The notes below the pieces were generated by a model. The model was not told where the DNA came from, did no database searches, and saw only the letters and a program-made list of their open reading frames with translations. From Gilvimarinus chinensis DSM 19667 (GTDB lineage: Bacteria > Pseudomonadota > Gammaproteobacteria > Pseudomonadales > Cellvibrionaceae), in the NCBI RefSeq assembly GCF_000377745.1, contig NZ_KB898706.1:62001-126000 (forward strand): 64,000 nucleotides of DNA, given 5' to 3'. Positions 9,850 to 56,267 of this stretch are shown here, piece after piece (within the stretch, counting starts at the first letter, position 1; each line of letters starts with the position of its first letter). Both the position numbers and the translations under genes were made by a program.

Positions 9850-10542
9850 ATGATCCGTTTAGACAATATTCACAAGTCCTACCACACGGGGGATCAGCAC
9901 CTGCATGTCCTAAAGGGTGTCGATATGCATATCCGTGAAGGCGAGTTAGTCTCCATTATGGGGTCCTCCGGCTCGGGCAAGTCTACCCTGCTGAATATTC
10001 TCGGGGTTTTGGATTCTCACGATACGGGCCACTACTATCTGGCAGGCCAGGAAATCCGCCATTTAAAAGAGCGTCAGGCCGCACACCTGCGCAATGCGTT
10101 TATTGGCTTTGTCTTTCAGTCATTCAATTTGCTGCCGTTTAAATCGGCGTTAGAGAACGTGGCCCTGCCTTTGTATTATCAGAAAGTTGGCCGGCGTGAG
10201 CGCAACCGTCGGGCGGCAGAGTATTTGGATATGGTGGGGCTGGCGGATCGCGCTGAGCATATGCCAAATCAGCTATCGGGTGGCCAGAAGCAACGGGTCG
10301 CAATGGCCCGCGCGCTGGTGACGCAACCGAAAGTCATTCTTGCCGATGAGCCGACAGGGGCCCTCGATAGCAAAACCACGGATGAAGTGATGCAGATCAT
10401 GAAACGTGTGCATGAGCTGGGTAATACCATCGTTATTGTCACCCACGAGCAAGACATTGCAGATCAAACAGAGCGCTGCATCGTACTGCGTGATGGTTTG
10501 GTGGTGGACGATGAAACTCAAACCGCCGGAGCGCTGGCGTGA
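9850..10542 (+). CDS. MacB/LolD-type ABC exporter, ATP-binding protein
   Basis: This 230-residue ATPase drives the membrane complex encoded just downstream. It has Walker A GSSGSGKST near residue 38, signature LSGGQKQRVAMARAL near 142, and Walker B VILADEPTGALD near 163. The size and DEPTGALD motif place it in the MacB/LolD/FtsE group, which uses mechanotransmission rather than moving substrate through the membrane. The gene is preceded by AAGGAAGG and overlaps the first permease gene by four bases. Substrate unknown. Confidence 0.92.
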   Translation: MIRLDNIHKSYHTGDQHLHVLKGVDMHIREGELVSIMGSSGSGKSTLLNILGVLDSHDTGHYYLAGQEIRHLKERQAAHLRNAFIGFVFQSFNLLPFKSALENVALPLYYQKVGRRERNRRAAEYLDMVGLADRAEHMPNQLSGGQKQRVAMARALVTQPKVILADEPTGALDSKTTDEVMQIMKRVHELGNTIVIVTHEQDIADQTERCIVLRDGLVVDDETQTAGALA

Positions 10543-11777
10543 TTGATGGCTTACAGGAAATACTCTATACCCTGCGGCGTAACAAGCTGCGCACCGCGTT
10601 GACAGCCTTCGGGGTCTTCTGGGGTATATTCATGCTGATTTTACTGCTGGGCGCGGGCCGCGGTATGCAAAACGGGGTGATGGATAGCTTTGCCGACAAT
10701 GCGCTCGACACCATTATTATTTGGAGTGGCACCACCTCGGTGGCGTATCAGGGGCAAGGGTTGGGGCGGCGCATTGGCTACACCGAAGATGACATCATTG
10801 CGTTACGCCAGCAGGTAGAAGGGCTTAGATTTATCACCGGTGCCAACTCTATGGGGCAGGGTACGGTGACATTCGGCAATAAAACCGGATTTTTCGATCT
10901 TTACGGAATTGATGATACGTATTTCAAAATCCGCGATCAGATTCCTTTCCCTTCCGGGCGCACCATTAACTACTTGGACGATGCTGAAACCCGCAAGGTT
11001 GCCGTAATTGGCACCAGCGTGCGAGATCGCTTGTTCGGCTCAGGCGTAAACCCTGAAGGAAAGATGATTCAGGTGAATAATATTAATCTGACCGTTATTG
11101 GTGTTTTCCATGATCGAAATAATAACGGTCGGGACTCTGAGCGAGTATTTGTTCCTTACAGTACTTTTACCAAAACCTTCGGCCGGGGCAACCAAGTGCA
11201 CGTGATATGGGCTCGCCCTAAGGCCGGTGTCGATGGCTTTGCGTTGGAAGAGCAAGTCGTTGATCTATTAAAGAAGCGCCACAATGTTGCGCCTGAAGAC
11301 AAGCGGGCCATTCAAACTTTTAACTTCGCTGAACCTGCAAAAATGGTCAAGGGGTTGTTTGTTGCCATTAATGGTTTTATCTGGTTCGTGGGCTTGGGTA
11401 CGTTAACGGCCGGTATTGTGGGCATCAGCAATATTATGATTATTACCGTAAAAGAGCGCACCCGCGAAATTGGTATCCGCAAAGCGCTGGGGGCTACCCC
11501 TTTTTCCATTGTCAGTACGCTGCTGCTTGAATCTATTTTGGTAACCGGCATTGCTGGTTACGCAGGTTTGGTCATGGGCGTGGGGCTGGTAGAGCTAATG
11601 GCATACGGCTTACAGGTGAGCGGTGCGCAAATGGAATTTTTTAAACGCCCCGAAGTGAATTTTTCGGCAGCCGTTACCGCTCTTGTGTTACTGATTATGG
11701 TTGGCGCTCTGGCCGGGTTGATGCCCGCTATTCGGGCTGCTCGTATACCGCCTGTTGAAGCGATGAGAGCAGAATAA
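10539..11777 (+). CDS. MacB-type ABC exporter, permease A
   Basis: The product is a 412-residue MacB-like permease: an N-terminal transmembrane helix (about residues 18-40, GVFWGIFMLILLLGAGRG), a large periplasmic MacB_PCD domain (about 45-270), and three helices forming an FtsX domain with the KERTREIGIRKALGA motif near residue 305. The start overlaps the ATPase gene. It is paralogous to the next gene: same opening helix, same KERTREIG motif, different periplasmic domain. The two probably form a heterodimer. Confidence 0.9.
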   Translation: MIDGLQEILYTLRRNKLRTALTAFGVFWGIFMLILLLGAGRGMQNGVMDSFADNALDTIIIWSGTTSVAYQGQGLGRRIGYTEDDIIALRQQVEGLRFITGANSMGQGTVTFGNKTGFFDLYGIDDTYFKIRDQIPFPSGRTINYLDDAETRKVAVIGTSVRDRLFGSGVNPEGKMIQVNNINLTVIGVFHDRNNNGRDSERVFVPYSTFTKTFGRGNQVHVIWARPKAGVDGFALEEQVVDLLKKRHNVAPEDKRAIQTFNFAEPAKMVKGLFVAINGFIWFVGLGTLTAGIVGISNIMIITVKERTREIGIRKALGATPFSIVSTLLLESILVTGIAGYAGLVMGVGLVELMAYGLQVSGAQMEFFKRPEVNFSAAVTALVLLIMVGALAGLMPAIRAARIPPVEAMRAE

Positions 11778-14132: not shown

Positions 14133-14171
14133 TCTAGGCAATGGACCGGGGCGCCCGGTTAGAGGTGAACT

Positions 14172-14834
14172 ATGGTTAACTGGCAGTCGATAGATACCGT
14201 CATGCTTGATATGGATGGCACGCTGCTGGATTTGCATTTCGATAACTACTTTTGGGTAGAGTATCTGCCGCAACGCTATGCGGAAATACATGGGCGTGAC
14301 TTTGCCTTGGTGCGCGATGAGCTGGCGAGTCAGATTGCCTCCTACGAGGGTAGCTTGCAGTGGTACTGCCTGGACTTCTGGTCTGATACCCTGGCATTAG
14401 ATATCCGCGCATTGAAAGAAGAGGTGAAGCATAAAATCAGTGTTCGGCCCCATGTGGTTAACTTTTTAGCCTGGCTGCGGGCAATGAACAAAAAGGTCAT
14501 GTTGGTAACCAACGCCCACCCGAAGGTGATGACCCTGAAGTTTGAGGTGACGCAAATCGATAAACACTTTGATTTGATTGTCTCGTCTCACGAGTTTAGT
14601 CACCCCAAAGAGGCGCAAGAATTTTGGCATGGCCTGGCGGCCAGAGAGCCTTTCGATCCGGCACGTACTTTATTTGTCGATGATACTTTACGGGTGTTGG
14701 ATTCGGCGCGTGACTATGGCATCGCGCACTTATTGGCAATTCACCAGCCGGATAGCCGAATTGAACGCCGCGTGAGCGGTTATCCAGCCATTGAGCACTT
14801 TGATGAAATCATGCCCACGCAAGAGAGCCGCTAG
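14172..14834 (+). CDS. yrfG: HAD-family GMP/IMP nucleotidase
   Basis: The N-terminal LDMDGTLLDLHFDNYFW motif carries the HAD nucleophile Asp and is characteristic of YrfG, which dephosphorylates GMP and IMP. The LVTNAHP motif II and LFVDDTLRVLD motif III/IV follow in order. The length of 220 residues is typical. The gene overlaps hslR by one base, and the order yrfG-hslR-hslO matches Escherichia coli, which supports the name. Confidence 0.9.
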   Translation: MVNWQSIDTVMLDMDGTLLDLHFDNYFWVEYLPQRYAEIHGRDFALVRDELASQIASYEGSLQWYCLDFWSDTLALDIRALKEEVKHKISVRPHVVNFLAWLRAMNKKVMLVTNAHPKVMTLKFEVTQIDKHFDLIVSSHEFSHPKEAQEFWHGLAAREPFDPARTLFVDDTLRVLDSARDYGIAHLLAIHQPDSRIERRVSGYPAIEHFDEIMPTQESR

Positions 14835-15226
14835 TGGAAAAAGTTCGTATTGATAAGTGGCTGTGGGCCGCGCGATTTTTCAAAACCCGCAGTATCGCAA
14901 AACAGGCTATAGAGGGTGGTAAAATCACCGCTGACGGTCAGCGTATAAAACCCAGTCGTGAAATTACGACCGGTGTGAGCCTGACCATTCGCCAGGGGTG
15001 GGACGATAAAACCGTCGAGGTTCTGGTGTTATCCGACCAGCGACGCGGTGCTCCTGAGGCGCAAAAGTTGTATCGTGAGACGGAGCAAAGTATTGCGTTA
15101 CGAGAGCAGCGCGCGGCCGAGCGCAAAGCAGGTTTAGGGTCTTTTATTGTCAGCGAGCACCGGCCCAACAAAAAGCAGCGTCGGCAAATTCACAGATTTA
15201 AGCGCGATATGGATGAAACCCCCTAA
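14834..15226 (+). CDS. hslR: Ribosome-associated heat shock protein Hsp15
   Basis: Hsp15 is an S4-domain RNA-binding protein that recycles stalled 50S subunits carrying peptidyl-tRNA. The S4 motif (VRIDKWLWAARFFKTRSIAKQ) opens the protein, and a basic tail rich in Lys and Arg ends it. The start is a GTG whose first base is the last base of the yrfG stop. The length of 130 residues matches the family. Confidence 0.93.
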   Translation: MEKVRIDKWLWAARFFKTRSIAKQAIEGGKITADGQRIKPSREITTGVSLTIRQGWDDKTVEVLVLSDQRRGAPEAQKLYRETEQSIALREQRAAERKAGLGSFIVSEHRPNKKQRRQIHRFKRDMDETP

Positions 15227-49958: not shown

Positions 49959-50762
49959 ATGACAAAAACTATTTTAATTACCGGTGCCACGGATGGCATT
50001 GGTTTATTAACCGCAAAAAAACTGGCCGCACAGGGACATCAGCTATGGGTCCACGGGCGCAACGCAAGCAAGCTTCAGCAAGTGGCCCAAACGCTATTTG
50101 AGTTGGGCGCGGGTGTTGTTGAAACCTATGTGGCGGACTTTTCCGATTTAGACCAGGTAAAAGCATTGGCGGGCGAGCTTAATCAATGTCATTCCCGGCT
50201 TGATGTGGTGATCAACAATGCCGGAGTTTACAAAACCTCCCAGCCGTTAAACAGCAAAGCGCAGGATATTCGGTTTGTGGTCAATACCTTGGCACCCTAC
50301 CTATTAACACAATCGCTATTGCCGCTAATGTCATCGGACGGGCGTGTGGTCAATGTAGTATCGGCCGCCCAAGCGCCAGTGAATGTTAAGGCGCTGTTAG
50401 GTGAAGTACACCTGCAAGATGATTTTTCTGCTTACGCGCAAAGCAAGCTCGCGCTAACCATTTGGTCGCGTCAAATGGCTCACGAGTTGCAGGGCAACGG
50501 GCCTGCGATTATTGCGGTAAACCCCGGTTCGCTGCTGGCCAGTAAAATGGTGCGTGAAGGGTTTGGTGTGGCCGGACACGATTTGGCAAAGGGTGCTGAT
50601 ATCCTCATTAAGGCCGCGCTCGGCGATAGTTTTTCTCAGGCATCGGGCTTGTATTTCGATAATGATCAAGGCGACTTTTCGCCGCCTCACAACGATGCGC
50701 TTGATGAACGAAAGAGTTTTTTAGTCATAGCCGCACTACAGAAAGTTCTCAATCAAGGGTAA
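49959..50762 (+). CDS. Short-chain dehydrogenase/reductase
   Basis: The 267-residue SDR has TGATDGIGLLTAKKL (cofactor loop), NNAGVYKT, the catalytic Ser region VVNVVSAAQ and Tyr-x3-Lys in YAQSKLAL. It lies 21 bp after the MDR gene, so both reductases and the monooxygenase probably act on one small molecule. Substrate unknown. It ends 168 bp before the guanidine riboswitch. Confidence 0.87.
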   Translation: MTKTILITGATDGIGLLTAKKLAAQGHQLWVHGRNASKLQQVAQTLFELGAGVVETYVADFSDLDQVKALAGELNQCHSRLDVVINNAGVYKTSQPLNSKAQDIRFVVNTLAPYLLTQSLLPLMSSDGRVVNVVSAAQAPVNVKALLGEVHLQDDFSAYAQSKLALTIWSRQMAHELQGNGPAIIAVNPGSLLASKMVREGFGVAGHDLAKGADILIKAALGDSFSQASGLYFDNDQGDFSPPHNDALDERKSFLVIAALQKVLNQG

Positions 50763-50929
50763 AGGCTTCGTTGTTACGTTATTGGTGCGTCATTACGTTA
50801 TTGTGCACTGCATTGGATCCTGCGGTCTTGGCGGGTGCCTTGGTTAGAATTCAAAAGTGCGGAGTATCAGCGGTTGAAGCGCGTTCTCGCACATTGGTAT
50901 AAGCTTTGCTGATATAACGACAAGAAGCA

Positions 50930-50980
50930 TCCGGGACGACCCGGAGCGGCTTGCCGTTTCTTTTGTCTGGACGACCAGGC
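50930..50980 (+). promoter_or_regulatory. Guanidine-II (mini-ykkC) riboswitch
   Basis: Two hairpins with ACGA tetraloops lie in tandem. The first pairs CCGGG (50931-50935) with CCCGG (50940-50944) around loop 50936-50939, plus one flanking T-A pair. The second pairs GTCTGG (50965-50970) with CCAGGC (50975-50980) around loop 50971-50974, including one U-G pair. They are separated by 20 nt. Paired ACGR-loop hairpins are the defining features of the guanidine-II class, where each loop helps bind one guanidinium. The Shine-Dalgarno AGGAGG (51007-51012) of the oxygenase gene follows 26 nt later, which suits translational control. Confidence 0.9.
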
Positions 50981-51019
50981 GGCGTTTTGAATATTCAACT
51001 TTATTCAGGAGGTTGCCCA

Positions 51020-52054
51020 GTGCCAGACAATTCGCCATCCCCCCATACTGCGTTTACCGCATTGCCTTGCGTTGATATCGCGGGTTTGTTCAGTGCCAAT
51101 GTTGCTGATCGTCAGGCCGTGGCCGATGAACTCGGCCGCGCCGCTCGTGAGGTGGGGTTTTTATACATCACCGGCCATGGTGTCAGCCCAGAACTGCAGT
51201 CGCGTTTACTGTCCCGCGCTAAAGATTACTTTGCCCAGCCTTTAGACGAAAAAATGCGTTTTTACATCGGCCAATCCGAGAACCACAGCGGCTATGTGCC
51301 CGAAGGGGAGGAAAAGCTCGGTGATGGCGCGGTGGACTGTAAAGAAGCCTACGACGTTAACTACGACTACCGCGCCGAGCTCGGCCGTCGGCCCATGTTG
51401 GGGCCAACCCAGTGGCCAGATGCGCCCGGTTTTAAAGAGGATGTAAAAAGCTATTATCAGGCGGCTCTGAATGTAGCCGACGCATTATTTCGCGGTTTTG
51501 CTCTGGCCTTACAGCTTGATGAAAACGCGCTAAGCCGCCATGTTAACCATCCGCCGAGTCAGCTGCGGATGATTCACTACCCTTACAACGAGCAAGCGCC
51601 CTCGGACCGCCCGGGCATTGGCGCCCATACCGATTACGAATGCTTCACTATTTTGCTGCCTACCGCTCCGGGGCTTGAGGTATTAAACGGTGCGGGGGAA
51701 TGGATTGACGTTCCTCTCAAAGACAACGCGTTTGTGATCAACATTGGCGACATGCTGGAGGTGTTAAGTAATGGCCAGTTTGTGGCCACTTCTCACAGAG
51801 TGCGTAAGGTAAAAGAAGAGCGTTATTCCTTTCCACTGTTTTGCGCCTGCGATTACGACACCGAAATTGCGCCTATTGAATCGCTGACAAAAGCAAATCC
51901 GGACCGCGACTACATTTCCCTTAAATGCGGCGACCATTTATACGCGCAAACCATTCAAACGTTTACCTATTTGAAAAACAAACTCGCGCGCGGCGAAATC
52001 AGCCTGCCCGAAAACTCTCAATCGGTGGATAGCTTTGGCTATCACGGCCAATAG
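51020..52054 (+). CDS. 2-oxoglutarate/Fe(II)-dependent oxygenase, isopenicillin N synthase family
   Basis: This 344-residue oxygenase belongs to the DIOX_N/2OG-FeII_Oxy group. The Fe ligands are His203 and Asp205 (GAHTDYE) and His259 (TSHRVRK); Arg268 in RYSFPLF binds 2-oxoglutarate. The GTG start at 51020 sits seven bases after AGGAGG; the frame upstream runs through the riboswitch and is not coding. It is the first gene behind a guanidine-II riboswitch, so its product is expected to rise with guanidine. Known relatives hydroxylate amino acids, and one relative (ethylene-forming enzyme) makes guanidine, so several substrates remain possible: guanidine itself, alkylguanidines or an arginine-like compound. 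Confidence 0.88.
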   Translation: MPDNSPSPHTAFTALPCVDIAGLFSANVADRQAVADELGRAAREVGFLYITGHGVSPELQSRLLSRAKDYFAQPLDEKMRFYIGQSENHSGYVPEGEEKLGDGAVDCKEAYDVNYDYRAELGRRPMLGPTQWPDAPGFKEDVKSYYQAALNVADALFRGFALALQLDENALSRHVNHPPSQLRMIHYPYNEQAPSDRPGIGAHTDYECFTILLPTAPGLEVLNGAGEWIDVPLKDNAFVINIGDMLEVLSNGQFVATSHRVRKVKEERYSFPLFCACDYDTEIAPIESLTKANPDRDYISLKCGDHLYAQTIQTFTYLKNKLARGEISLPENSQSVDSFGYHGQ

Positions 52055-52063
52055 GAGCTGGGT

Positions 52064-53011
52064 ATGCATTTAGTAGACATAGTTAATAACCACGCCTCTG
52101 CTGCGAAAAGTGGCGTGCCCGATTGGATGCTGGGCTACTTTAAGCGTCGCAGCATCAGTTTTTCCAATGGCGAGACAGACACAAAAACCCATGTGTGCTG
52201 GCTGCAAAGCCGCAACTTCACCATTGATTTACGCCTGCCCATAGAAAGTGAGCAAGTTGTTAACAAGCCATTGCAAGAGTACAGCGCGGCGGAATTACGC
52301 ACCTTGGGTAACTATGAAGGCTGGGTGGCCGACAGCGTATGGAACGGTGAAACGTTAGCCTGGGAAAATGAAATCGCGCTGCAGCTGCACGGCCGCTGGC
52401 AAGAGCCTGCTTACCTGAAACGGGTTGGCAACTGCATGATGGAATTCTGCCCCAGCGACGCCTATGTAGAAGACTGGCGTTTGCAGCCAAGCGCGCCGGG
52501 CCCGCTGATTGGCTTGAGATTACTGCAAGAAAAAAACCTAAGCACACAAACCATTACTCGTAACAGCGGTGGTTTGATTATTTGCGGTGATTACGCAGCA
52601 CTGGTGCTGGGGCGGCCGGAGCCTATCATGGCCGATTCTGCTAATGCCTTGCGTGAAAAAGCGCAATCCGCGGTGGGCGATAAAGCAGCCTTAAGTCAGC
52701 TTTTCGATTTTGAAACTTCGGTTGCCAAAGGCTCAATGCAAAATGGCTTTGCGGTTTCCTTAAGTACTTGCCCCGAGCGCATTGGTAAAGAAATTTTTAG
52801 CCTGGATGGGTTCAGTATAAGTCCAGACTCAAAAACGCTTACGCAAAATTTTGCAGCTACCGATGGCAGTGTCGTAGAAAGAGTCTACGCGATCGATACC
52901 ATTGAATCGGGAGTTGAGTTTACTCAGACAACGCCAACCTGCGAACCATCAAAGCAGTGGTTTGACCGCGAAAGCGAAACCCTGTGCCGTTATACCCAAC
53001 CCTGTTATTAA
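52064..53011 (+). CDS. Uncharacterised protein in the guanidine-regulated operon
   Basis: The 315-residue protein has no signal peptide or membrane helix. The first 130 residues read as beta strands with WLQSRNFTIDLRLP, a tight GYFKRRSISF opening and WENEIALQLHGRW, then MEFCPSDAYVEDWRL. This recalls a group of uncharacterised bacterial proteins with a WLQ...DLR.P pattern, but I cannot name a family. Its start is 9 bp after the oxygenase stop, with AGGAG, so it is translated in the same operon. It ends 17 bp before the next gene's ATG. Confidence 0.7.
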   Translation: MHLVDIVNNHASAAKSGVPDWMLGYFKRRSISFSNGETDTKTHVCWLQSRNFTIDLRLPIESEQVVNKPLQEYSAAELRTLGNYEGWVADSVWNGETLAWENEIALQLHGRWQEPAYLKRVGNCMMEFCPSDAYVEDWRLQPSAPGPLIGLRLLQEKNLSTQTITRNSGGLIICGDYAALVLGRPEPIMADSANALREKAQSAVGDKAALSQLFDFETSVAKGSMQNGFAVSLSTCPERIGKEIFSLDGFSISPDSKTLTQNFAATDGSVVERVYAIDTIESGVEFTQTTPTCEPSKQWFDRESETLCRYTQPCY

Positions 53012-53028
53012 TGCCGAGAGGTCAAACG

Positions 53029-54123
53029 ATGAAAAAGCTCCTTAGTCTATTGAGTGTACACAGTAAAAAAATTACCGCTGCGTTGTGTTTTCTGGCGTTG
53101 ATGTTTGGTGCTGCATCCGTGCAAGCGGCCGAGAAAAAATCCTTTAAAGTTGCCTGGTCTATTTACGCGGGCTGGATGCCTTGGGCTTATGCCAACGACA
53201 AAGGCATTATTAAAAAATGGGCCGATAAATACGGCATTGAGATTGAAGTGGTGCAGATGAACGACTACATCGAATCCATTAACCAGTTTACGGCCGGTGA
53301 ATTTGACGCCTGCGCCATGACCAATATGGATGCGCTGACTATTCCGGCTGCTTACGGTGTGGATACCACCGGCTTGATTTTGGGTGACTACTCAAACGGT
53401 AACGATGGTCTTGTACTTAAAAACGCCGACAGCATCGCCGACATTAAAGGCCGTAACGTTAACCTGGTAGAGCTTTCTGTGTCTCACTACTTTTTGGCCC
53501 GTGCACTGGATATGAACGGCATGTCAGAGCGCGACGTGACCGTGGTGAACACTTCAGATGCGGATGCGGTGTCAACGTTTATGACCGATGACGTCACCGC
53601 CGCTGCCGTGTGGAACCCGCAGCTGGGGATTATTCTCGACCGTGCCGAAGATGCTACGGAAGTGTTCACCTCAAAAGAAATACCGGGTGAAATTATCGAC
53701 ATGATGGCCGCCAATACCGACACCCTGAAAGACAACCCTGCCTTTGGTAAAGCGCTGGTGGGTGCCTGGTTTGAAACTCTGGCCCTGATGCAGGGCGACT
53801 CGGAAGAAGCGAAGGCCGCGCGCAGCTATATGGCCGACCAAGCCGGTACCGATTTAGCCGGGTACGAAGCGCAGTTGGCCGACACCATGCTGTTCTACAC
53901 ACCTGCGTCGGCGTATGAGTTTGCCAGCAATAAGGATCTTCTGGGTTTTATGGATAAAGTGCGCCAGTTCTCTTTTGACAAAGGTCTGCTGGGCGAAGCC
54001 AGCCCAAGCCCGGATGTCGTCGGTATGGAGTTCGCCGATGGCGCCGTACTTGGCGACAAAAGCAACATTAAACTTCGCTTTGATGCCAGCTACGTGAAAA
54101 TGGCTGCGGATGGGAAACTGTAA
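53029..54123 (+). CDS. Periplasmic substrate-binding protein, urea-carboxylase-region type
   Basis: The 364-residue protein has a signal peptide ending VQAAE and the NMT1/TauA-type solute-binding fold (VAWSIYAGWMPWAYANDKGI, DACAMTNMDALTIPAAYG, GLILGDYSNGNDGL). It resembles the periplasmic proteins of ABC systems found beside urea/guanidine carboxylase genes (TIGR03427 type). The ATG at 53029 is preferred because the signal peptide starts there. A strong terminator follows, and no permease or ATPase gene is adjacent, so the transporter is incomplete here or uses components encoded elsewhere. Confidence 0.85.
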   Translation: MKKLLSLLSVHSKKITAALCFLALMFGAASVQAAEKKSFKVAWSIYAGWMPWAYANDKGIIKKWADKYGIEIEVVQMNDYIESINQFTAGEFDACAMTNMDALTIPAAYGVDTTGLILGDYSNGNDGLVLKNADSIADIKGRNVNLVELSVSHYFLARALDMNGMSERDVTVVNTSDADAVSTFMTDDVTAAAVWNPQLGIILDRAEDATEVFTSKEIPGEIIDMMAANTDTLKDNPAFGKALVGAWFETLALMQGDSEEAKAARSYMADQAGTDLAGYEAQLADTMLFYTPASAYEFASNKDLLGFMDKVRQFSFDKGLLGEASPSPDVVGMEFADGAVLGDKSNIKLRFDASYVKMAADGKL

Positions 54124-54147
54124 TCTCGATTTCTCTGTAAGTTCTTT

Positions 54148-54178
54148 GCCCGGGTGCGTTAAGCCCCGGGCTTTTTTT
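54148..54178 (+). terminator. Strong Rho-independent terminator of the guanidine operon
   Basis: GCCCGGG (54148-54154) pairs with CCCGGGC (54165-54171) around a 10-nt loop, followed by seven T. It lies 24 bp after the binding-protein stop and closes the three-gene unit. Confidence 0.9.
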
Positions 54179-54355
54179 CGGCTACCTTTTTATACTTGCT
54201 TATACCTATTCAATCTACCAAAACGGTTCATTCAAGAACTTCTCTTAGTTTTCACTTTTCATGTTGGCTTTCACAAACTTTTGTAAAGCCGGTTGAACTC
54301 TTTATCCGTCGCCTACACTGAAGTCTTACGTACTCGTTCAGTCGCAGGAGGCTTT

Positions 54356-55354
54356 ATGACCAGTTATACCGAAATCCGTCTCAAAGAATATTATCGCCAG
54401 GGCAAAATTACGCCCCAACTGTTTGATGTCGTCTCGGCCCCTGTGCCCGAGCCTGAGCAAGGGGAGGTGCTGATCAAACAAACGCACATGTCACTAGACC
54501 CGGCCATGCTGGGCTGGATGACGGACGACACCGAAAGCTACATACCGCCTGTACAGCTGGGTGAGGTAATGCGCAGTAATGGGATTGGTGAGGTAGTCGC
54601 CTCAAAACATTCTGATTTTGCCGAAGGTGACCGGGTAATGGGTATGCTGGGCTGGCGTGAATACGCCACCAGTGACGGTCAGGGGCTTACCAAACTGCAG
54701 CCGGGTGTAAGCGAAGAAATGGCGTTGAGCGTCCTGTCCCTTCCGGGGCTAACCGCGGTGCAGGGGCTGCTCAATATTGGCAAGCCAAAAGCGGGCGAGA
54801 CATTAGTAGTCACCGGGGCCGCCGGGTCGGTGGGCTCTATTGTTGGCCAACTGGGTAAAGCCAATGGCCTACGTGTGATAGGTGTCGTGGGCAGTGATGA
54901 AAAAGCAGATTGGATAGTTAACGAGCTGGGCTTTGACGGCGCCATTAACTACAACACGCCAAACCTTGGGGCTCAGCTAGAAGCGCTTACCCCAGATAAA
55001 ATCGATGTGTTTTTCGAAAACACGGGCGGGCCCATTCAAGATGACATCTTCAACCGGATGAACACCCATGGTCGGATTGTGGTATGCGGTATGATTGCCG
55101 ATTACCAAGCAGAGCAGCCTCGCCCAGGGCCGAATTGGATTCCACTGATCAAACAACGCATCACTATTCAGGGTTTTGCGATGCCAGATCATCTACACAA
55201 CGCCCCCCAGTTAATATCGCAACTGATGCCTTACGTTGAAGCCGGTAATATAAAATATCGCGCTCATACCCTCGAAGGGCTAAACAGTGCAATTGATGGG
55301 TTGAACTTGTTCTTTAGCGGTGAAAATAAAGGTAAGTTGCTGGTAGAGCTTTAA
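54356..55354 (+). CDS. CurA/YncB-like NADP-dependent reductase (MDR)
   Basis: The 332-residue zinc-free MDR has QTHMSLDPAMLGWMTDD, the cofactor loop VTGAAGSVGSIVGQLGKANG, and FENTGGPIQDDIFNRMN, which match the CurA/YncB/prostaglandin-reductase group. These enzymes reduce alpha,beta-unsaturated ketones with NADPH. The ATG at 54356 follows AGGAG, and the longer frame adds 21 unrelated residues. It has its own terminator, so it is a single gene. Confidence 0.88.
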   Translation: MTSYTEIRLKEYYRQGKITPQLFDVVSAPVPEPEQGEVLIKQTHMSLDPAMLGWMTDDTESYIPPVQLGEVMRSNGIGEVVASKHSDFAEGDRVMGMLGWREYATSDGQGLTKLQPGVSEEMALSVLSLPGLTAVQGLLNIGKPKAGETLVVTGAAGSVGSIVGQLGKANGLRVIGVVGSDEKADWIVNELGFDGAINYNTPNLGAQLEALTPDKIDVFFENTGGPIQDDIFNRMNTHGRIVVCGMIADYQAEQPRPGPNWIPLIKQRITIQGFAMPDHLHNAPQLISQLMPYVEAGNIKYRAHTLEGLNSAIDGLNLFFSGENKGKLLVEL

Positions 55355-55712: not shown

Positions 55713-56267
55713 ATGACATCTTTAAATATAGCTCCCATTGAAAATGCCATTGCCATGGCACCGACAAAAGCTGACGTTAACTCTTACCAGGTTTCTAAAA
55801 AGAAAGGGAATATCTCTGGTGTGGCCGTAAGTGTTTCGGGTGCTGGTGCCTGGGGCAAGTTAAGCGGCGGTTTTGATTTCAAAATTACCAATATTGAAAC
55901 GTCTAAAACTTATCAGGAAATGCGTAAAAGTTACGGTATTTCTGGTGGGATCTCCGCATTTTGGAGTTGGTTAGGCGTGCATGCAAATGCCGAAGCTCAC
56001 AAAGAAGAAATTAAAAAGGTATTTCATGAAGTTCAGCAATCCCAGCAGGTTAACGGCCATGTGAATGTAGACCTTGAAGTGACTGGTCAGTACCCGAACG
56101 TTGAAGTGACCGCCAGCGCTTTTATCTTTGTGCTGCAGATTAGCAGCGAAATGGGTAACACTTACGTCGCCTCCTCAGGTGATCCCAAAAGTGATGTGGG
56201 CGCCCAAGACGAGAATGGTGGCAACCTGCCTACCCGCAATAACGATAGCTCTATGACATTTAGCTAA
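55713..56267 (+). CDS. Unknown 184-residue protein
   Basis: The protein has no signal peptide and no clear membrane helix. It is rich in Gly, Ser, Val and Lys. Visible features are a beta-rich GVAVSVSGAGAWGKLSGGF segment, a Trp-containing GISAFWSWLGVHANAEAH, and VNVDLEVTGQYPNVEVTASA, ending in a polar tail. I do not recognise the family. A good Shine-Dalgarno and a downstream hairpin support a real gene. It is alone and its base composition differs from its neighbours. Confidence 0.7.
   Translation: MTSLNIAPIENAIAMAPTKADVNSYQVSKKKGNISGVAVSVSGAGAWGKLSGGFDFKITNIETSKTYQEMRKSYGISGGISAFWSWLGVHANAEAHKEEIKKVFHEVQQSQQVNGHVNVDLEVTGQYPNVEVTASAFIFVLQISSEMGNTYVASSGDPKSDVGAQDENGGNLPTRNNDSSMTFS

Follow-up and report, generated by a model that had tools for sequence, protein, structure and literature searches.

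The window analysed here, a 64,000-nucleotide (nt) stretch of the Gilvimarinus chinensis DSM 19667 genome (contig NZ_KB898706.1), carries on its forward strand a three-gene operon preceded by a structured leader. The first gene (51020-52054, GTG start at 51020) encodes a 2-oxoglutarate (2OG)/Fe(II) dioxygenase of 344 amino acids (aa), the second (52064-53011) a protein of 315 aa, and the third (53029-54123) a periplasmic binding protein of 364 aa belonging to the TIGR03427 family. The leader comprises a predicted σ54-type promoter, TTGGTATAAGCTTTGCT (50894-50910), hairpin P1 (TCCGGG-ACGA-CCCGGA, 50930-50945), hairpin P2 (TTGTCTGG-ACGA-CCAGGCGG, 50963-50982), and a third hairpin, P3 (50978-51017), in which 50978-50993 pairs with 51002-51017 at 15 of 16 positions and which encloses the Shine-Dalgarno sequence AGGAGG (51007-51012). 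An intrinsic terminator follows the third gene at 54148-54178, read from the sequence as a stem of 54148-54154 with 54165-54171 and a run of T; a terminator scan of the window lists only the inner part of this stem. A sequence-only reading of the locus had already pointed to the two ACGA-loop hairpins before the oxygenase gene, to the binding protein as one of the urea-carboxylase-region type and to the terminator, all of which are present. We propose that the locus is very likely a stand-alone methylguanidine demethylation operon under the control of a guanidine-II riboswitch, and that its first two genes are mgdH and mgdL.

The chemistry of such a gene pair is known from Vreelandella boliviensis (Sinn et al., October 2025; PMC12508155). 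In that organism the 2OG dioxygenase MgdH (A0A265DXP8) hydroxylates methylguanidine, and MgdL (A0A265DXW6), a 'hypothetical protein' that requires Asp49 and Arg51, splits the hydroxylated product into guanidine and formaldehyde. V. boliviensis grows on methylguanidine, and its guanidine-II switch binds this compound (PMC12508155). Two loci of our survey share the published arrangement: in L114 two cgd-type genes, a guanidine-II switch, gca, mgdH and mgdL are consecutive, and L113 has the same gene order with about 0.9 kb separating gca and mgdH. The window oxygenase is 60% identical to that of L114 over 337 residues (410 bits, blastp) and 57% identical to that of L113 over 339 residues, and it falls in one tree with both; the tree also includes a fragment of 65 aa from L013, whose placement is unsure. 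It contains the Pfam domains DIOX_N and 2OG-FeII_Oxy, and the iron ligands His203, Asp205 and His259 (H-x-D...H) and the 2OG-binding Arg268, described as intact in the sequence-only reading, are present and invariant in all four aligned rows. The enzyme is therefore probably MgdH, a predicted methylguanidine hydroxylase, and a scan of the genome found no second relative at an E value of 1e-5.

The second protein, called uncharacterised in the sequence-only reading, which counted the oxygenase as the only enzyme, looks like the lyase MgdL. In L114, the 225-aa MgdL carries Asp and Arg exactly at the published catalytic positions 49 and 51, and Asp55 and Arg57 of the window protein align with these residues. 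All 46 aligned MgdL sequences have the same residue at eight positions (D39, W46, D55, R57, W100, E127, E136 and W138); the MgdL alignments draw on 42 and 44 of the 84 loci surveyed. The window protein has no Pfam or NCBIfam match, and a search of solved structures with its sequence gave none at an E value of 1 or better. Its structural model is beta-rich (pLDDT 96.4); Foldseek found no match to the model in the PDB at E 0.001 or better; a partial match to the lipocalin-like structure 4qrl has a TM score of 0.67 for the target. No second MgdL relative was detected in the genome at E 0.001. We thus predict that the protein is a long-type N-(hydroxymethyl)guanidine lyase.

To place this gene pair in context, genomes from GTDB were scanned with an alignment of MgdL; 127 relatives passed and 80 were kept, V. 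boliviensis itself not being found among them. Adding the window and three plasmid loci brings the set to 84. The three plasmid loci come from a plasmid search that returned 3 records with MgdL relatives, and in two class samples of genomes matches occurred in 6 of 369 and 8 of 370, the G. chinensis genome included. An mgdH relative is present in 82 of the 84 loci and lies directly upstream of mgdL in 81, in a set that was itself chosen by MgdL. The exceptions are L056, where the order is reversed, L060, which starts within mgdL, and L039, where other genes lie upstream of mgdL.

Hairpins P1 and P2 have the traits of the guanidine-II class: two ACGR-loop hairpins, GG/CC closing pairs, a linker of 17 nt, within the 7-40 nt given for the class in PMC7544219, and a position near the Shine-Dalgarno sequence. 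Some relatives have longer P1-P2 linkers than this range. The Rfam model RF01068 matches 50928-50979 over its full length with 25.3 bits, below the gathering score of 32, which is a curators' cut-off rather than a biological trait; the E value is 0.037 against 4227 families in 4.1 kb and 0.009 over the whole genome, where this is the third-best guanidine-II match. At the gathering cut-off, a default Rfam search of the window lists no match. Of 82 loci, 63 have two ACGR hairpins in the 300 nt preceding mgdH; the choice of P1 is doubtful in one of them, L062. Random 300-nt stretches drawn from these loci contain such a pair in 18 of 7905 cases, and gca-side switches may lie in some of these stretches. 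Of the 62 relatives with such a pair, 2 score over 32 bits, another 49 give weaker matches (9 of them spanning less than 80% of the hairpin pair), and the remaining 11 go unmatched at E 1 or better; the larger of the searches behind these counts ran stricter filters, which lose weak matches. An alignment of 37 distinct leaders from the 63 has 93.7% of stem cells paired and 56 double-change cells, as opposed to 16.3 in shuffled alignments. These changes fall in 8 of 12 stem pairs of P1 and P2, twelve core columns are invariant in 37 of 37 rows, and the hairpin pair keeps its place before mgdH across several families. The third pair of P2 is U-A in 35 of the 37 distinct mgdH-side switches; the 19 hairpin pairs at other places in the loci, next to gca or cgd genes, all have G-C instead. 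A covariance-model score below threshold was among the outcomes that the sequence-only reading named as refuting, and formally the window gives such a score; since 60 of the 62 relatives also miss it and both stems covary, we accept the pair as a guanidine-II riboswitch, with guanidine or methylguanidine as the predicted ligand. The class named in that reading is thereby borne out.

The window differs from the RF01068 class in that its ribosome site lies on the separate hairpin P3, the 5' bases of which are the outer 3' bases of P2. Two of these shared bases pair in P2 in 37 of 37 and 36 of 37 rows and a third in 21 of 37; because the bases are shared, P2 and P3 cannot both be complete. For P3 we aligned 31 distinct tails, leaders without a clear P3 having been removed by eye before identical tails were removed. 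Pairing occurs in 78.6% of cells, compared with at most 55.7% when slid and 73.6% in shuffles, and the covariation score is 0.396 compared with 0.294 in shuffles. Basal pairs co-vary (pair 5-42: GC 14, AU 11, UA 4; pair 6-41: UA 10, UG 10, CG 9, AU 1), and upper pairs are frequently broken. When P1 and P2 are enforced in folding, predicted ribosome-site accessibility rises in 40 of 48 leaders, the median moving from 0.28 to 0.45. The shared pairing of P2 and P3 is supported by sequence comparison, and would allow the ligand to act on translation.

The consensus of σ54 promoters is GG-N10-GC within TGGCAY...TTGCW. The window site has the GG (50896-50897) and GC (50908-50909) exactly 10 nt apart and agrees at 5 of 8 non-fixed positions; transcription would be expected to start at about 50921, shortly before P1. 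Across the locus set, 40 of 63 loci reach a score of at least 6, a level seen in 1.5% of 1890 shuffled sequences and in 4.4% of 1072 other upstream regions. Of the 46 sites that score at least 5, 45 stand 15-70 nt before the P1 loop. It is this set, and not the window site alone, that supports σ54 control. The Acinetobacter and Oceanospirillaceae loci among those surveyed are without a σ54-like site, and L036, L055 and L098 reach a score of 6 though they have no hairpin pair. NtrC-site scores of at least 11 were found in 24 of 50 loci compared with 2.9% of controls, many of these loci being near-identical Pseudomonas sequences. The G. chinensis genome encodes RpoN and NtrC, and a promoter scan found no σ70-like site in 50700-54400. 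In many Pseudomonas leaders (L030 to L047) a GCACC...GGTGC palindrome lies between the σ54-like site and P1, possibly a 5' hairpin or a protein site.

The binding protein matches TIGR03427, a family of urea/guanidine ABC binding proteins, over 328 of 328 profile positions with 521 bits (cut-off 334); unlike the family at large it has no permease or ATPase gene beside it, and it falls in a clade found only with mgdL. Of 60 related binding proteins, 17 of them labelled 'other' in the tree, 30 follow mgdL, and these 30 form one clade (support 97/95); linkage to mgdL requires one change on the tree as opposed to 20.3 in shuffles. All 30 loci have the hairpin pair before mgdH. The window copy is 59% identical to the copy in the gca operon of its own genome, which consists of a guanidine-I switch, genes for a binding protein, permease and ATPase, two cgd-type genes (TIGR03425, TIGR03424), a guanidine-II switch and a carboxylase gene (TIGR02712). 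In L028, L033, L034 and L037 a divergent gca operon has permease and ATPase genes and no binding-protein match of its own in the stretch examined, which suggests that the mgdL-linked clade works with the gca-operon importer as a shared one; specificity for methylguanidine is a prediction. The genome Rfam scan places one guanidine-II switch before the urea-carboxylase-family gene that we read as guanidine carboxylase (37.5 bits) and another before a SugE-like SMR gene (33.2 bits), whose product scores 123.6 bits with NCBIfam SugE (cut-off 126) and above cut-off with PF00893. Genes for allophanate hydrolase (AtzF) and glutathione-dependent formaldehyde dehydrogenase are also present.

These features suggest a combined control by nitrogen starvation and (methyl)guanidine. 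Under nitrogen scarcity, a transcript would be made from the σ54 promoter, and in the absence of ligand P3 would mask its ribosome site. Binding of guanidine or methylguanidine by the P1/P2 aptamer would stabilise P2, which would compete for the shared outer 3' bases, loosen P3 and let translation begin. The binding protein would capture methylguanidine, probably docking on the permease-ATPase pair that the gca operon encodes at another place in the genome, and MgdH and MgdL would demethylate the compound. Gca, CgdAB and AtzF could then convert the released guanidine to ammonia, and the formaldehyde could go to the glutathione-dependent dehydrogenase. Because the second protein looks like MgdL, the two enzymes would be expected to demethylate methylguanidine with release of guanidine; the likely reaction is methylguanidine to guanidine plus formaldehyde, and direct oxidation of guanidine was rejected. 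Of the proposal in the sequence-only reading, control by a guanidine-II switch of an oxidative step on some guanidino compound, which the binding protein would take up, is well supported; guanidine itself is an unlikely substrate. A further step, which we offer tentatively and regard as the less probable outcome, is that the mgdH-side switches, with their U-A third P2 pair and P3, are a methylguanidine-tuned variant of guanidine-II that, with a σ54 promoter and a methylguanidine-specific binding protein on a shared importer, forms a gate requiring both nitrogen starvation and methylguanidine, common in Pseudomonas and relatives and mostly under the Rfam cut-off.

Several observations weigh against this interpretation. 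L113 and L114, which stand in for the V. boliviensis sequences, were picked out by the order of their genes and the numbering of residues, and both stretches lack an atzF gene immediately after mgdL. The window MgdL, at 315 rather than 225 aa, is about 29% identical to the short type. Many relatives are near-copies of each other or related, and counts over them are therefore not independent. The window σ54 score is not significant alone, with 9% of shuffled sequences and 12% of other upstream regions also scoring at least 5, and in the upstream NtrC-site scan the window reaches 9 of 14, near background. Thirteen of 63 leaders, eight of them from Acinetobacter, were set aside for want of a clear P3 and may work otherwise; two of five P3 measures are no better than shuffles (5 double-change pairs compared with 4.1, and 17 further pair types compared with 18.4). 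Enforcing P1 and P2 lowers predicted accessibility or leaves it as it was in 8 of 48 P3 leaders, and the rise in the window is small, from 0.09 to 0.20. Finally, the sub-threshold Rfam score and the 19 of 82 mgdH genes without an upstream hairpin pair could be taken to mean that the hairpins are a decayed or chance structure and not a working switch. Given the double changes in the stems, the invariant core and the recurrence before mgdH described above, we rejected chance hairpins, and the idea as a whole has hardly any claim on belief.

Other readings concern the substrate. Guanidine-producing oxygenases of the ethylene-forming-enzyme and plant 2-ODD-C23 kind exist (PMC12508155), and the window oxygenase, a member of the same superfamily, has its best solved-structure match in an ethylene/succinate-forming enzyme chain (9ovh). 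It might accordingly act on a larger molecule, for instance arginine or homoarginine, and free guanidine from it, with the switch sensing the product. We consider this highly improbable. The 172 bits to 9ovh (phmmer) compare with 410 bits (blastp) to the oxygenases of gca-mgdH-mgdL loci, on bit scales that differ between the two programs, and the ethylene-forming enzyme was rejected as closest kin, 2-ODD-C23 lying outside the comparison. Moreover, hydroxylated arginine or homoarginine decays spontaneously (PMC12508155), so that this route needs no lyase and the adjoining MgdL-type gene, a neighbour in nearly all loci of the set, would be superfluous; arginine/homoarginine hydroxylation was rejected for these reasons. 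A demethylation of some other N-methylated guanidino compound, N,N-dimethylguanidine or an undescribed one, with methylguanidine secondary, is unlikely in our estimate: the V. boliviensis guanidine-II switch does not respond to dimethylguanidine, and MgdL does not speed the decay of its hydroxylated form, even though MgdH accepts it (PMC12508155). The divergence of the long MgdL from the short type nevertheless means that specificity may have shifted. Methylguanidine demethylation remains the reading that we prefer.

The window and V. boliviensis are alike in gene pair and order, 2OG/Fe residues, catalytic Asp-x-Arg, control by a guanidine riboswitch and the presence of downstream pathway genes. 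In V. boliviensis, mgdHL lies within the gca operon, with a guanidine-I switch at the operon start and a guanidine-II switch before gca (PMC12508155), whereas the window has a separate operon with its own guanidine-II switch before mgdH, its own binding protein and a σ54-like site. The core chemistry is published and hence not new, contrary to the earlier claim that no characterised operon of this form was known; nor is the breadth of MgdL as such, 216 homologues having been counted in a database search (PMC12508155). What is new is the stand-alone arrangement, its own guanidine-II switch below the cut-off, the long MgdL, the mgdL-linked binding-protein clade, the overlapping P3 and the σ54-like site. 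The available portion of PMC12508155 does not mention an mgdHL operon that stands alone and carries its own switch, and in the open-licence PMC literature we found no account of such an operon, its promoter or its binding protein. With these loci, predicted methylguanidine use extends past the halophiles described in 2025 and takes in Pseudomonas, Marinobacter, Haliea, Acinetobacter, Novosphingobium, Hyphomicrobium and others, a spread suggesting that methylguanidine commonly serves as a nitrogen source in nature. The loci also indicate a subgroup of guanidine-II switches that mostly escape the Rfam cut-off, and a riboswitch placement directly downstream of a likely nitrogen-control promoter, and the Pseudomonas loci offer tractable systems for questions of ligand choice and uptake.

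Other arrangements were seen among the loci. MgdL-type genes without MgdH adjoin FA_desaturase-family (PF00487) genes in L039 (6138-15077), L016 (4354-7160) and L112 (3744-7473), with metallo-beta-lactamase-family genes (Pfam) also beside them in L016 and L112, guanidine-I riboswitches in L039 and L016, gca-atzF adjoining in L112 and a creatininase-family gene in L039. In such loci a lyase of this kind may be supplied by a non-homologous hydroxylase. L041 has two MgdL-type genes, at 10001-10963 and 14171-14851, one of the long type and one divergent. A divergent pair in L013 (1097-8563; genome G365, which also bears the L114 operon) is 39% identical to MgdH and 28% to MgdL and lies near an arginase-family gene, a PhyH-family oxygenase and a transporter; it is perhaps for another methylated guanidine. 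In the window itself, 55713-56267 encodes a 184-aa protein of unknown family with no Pfam match above cut-off. In the Hyphomicrobium loci L084, L086, L088 and L101, genes for a binding protein (a partial match at the locus start in L101), mgdH, mgdL, permease and ATPase are followed on a single strand by a guanidine-II-like pair and cgd-cgd-gca-atzF. On a plasmid of Acinetobacter sp. NCu2D-2, typed as mobilizable (L018, 8994-11220), mgdH and mgdL stand behind a guanidine-II-like pair and are followed directly by an SMR transporter gene.

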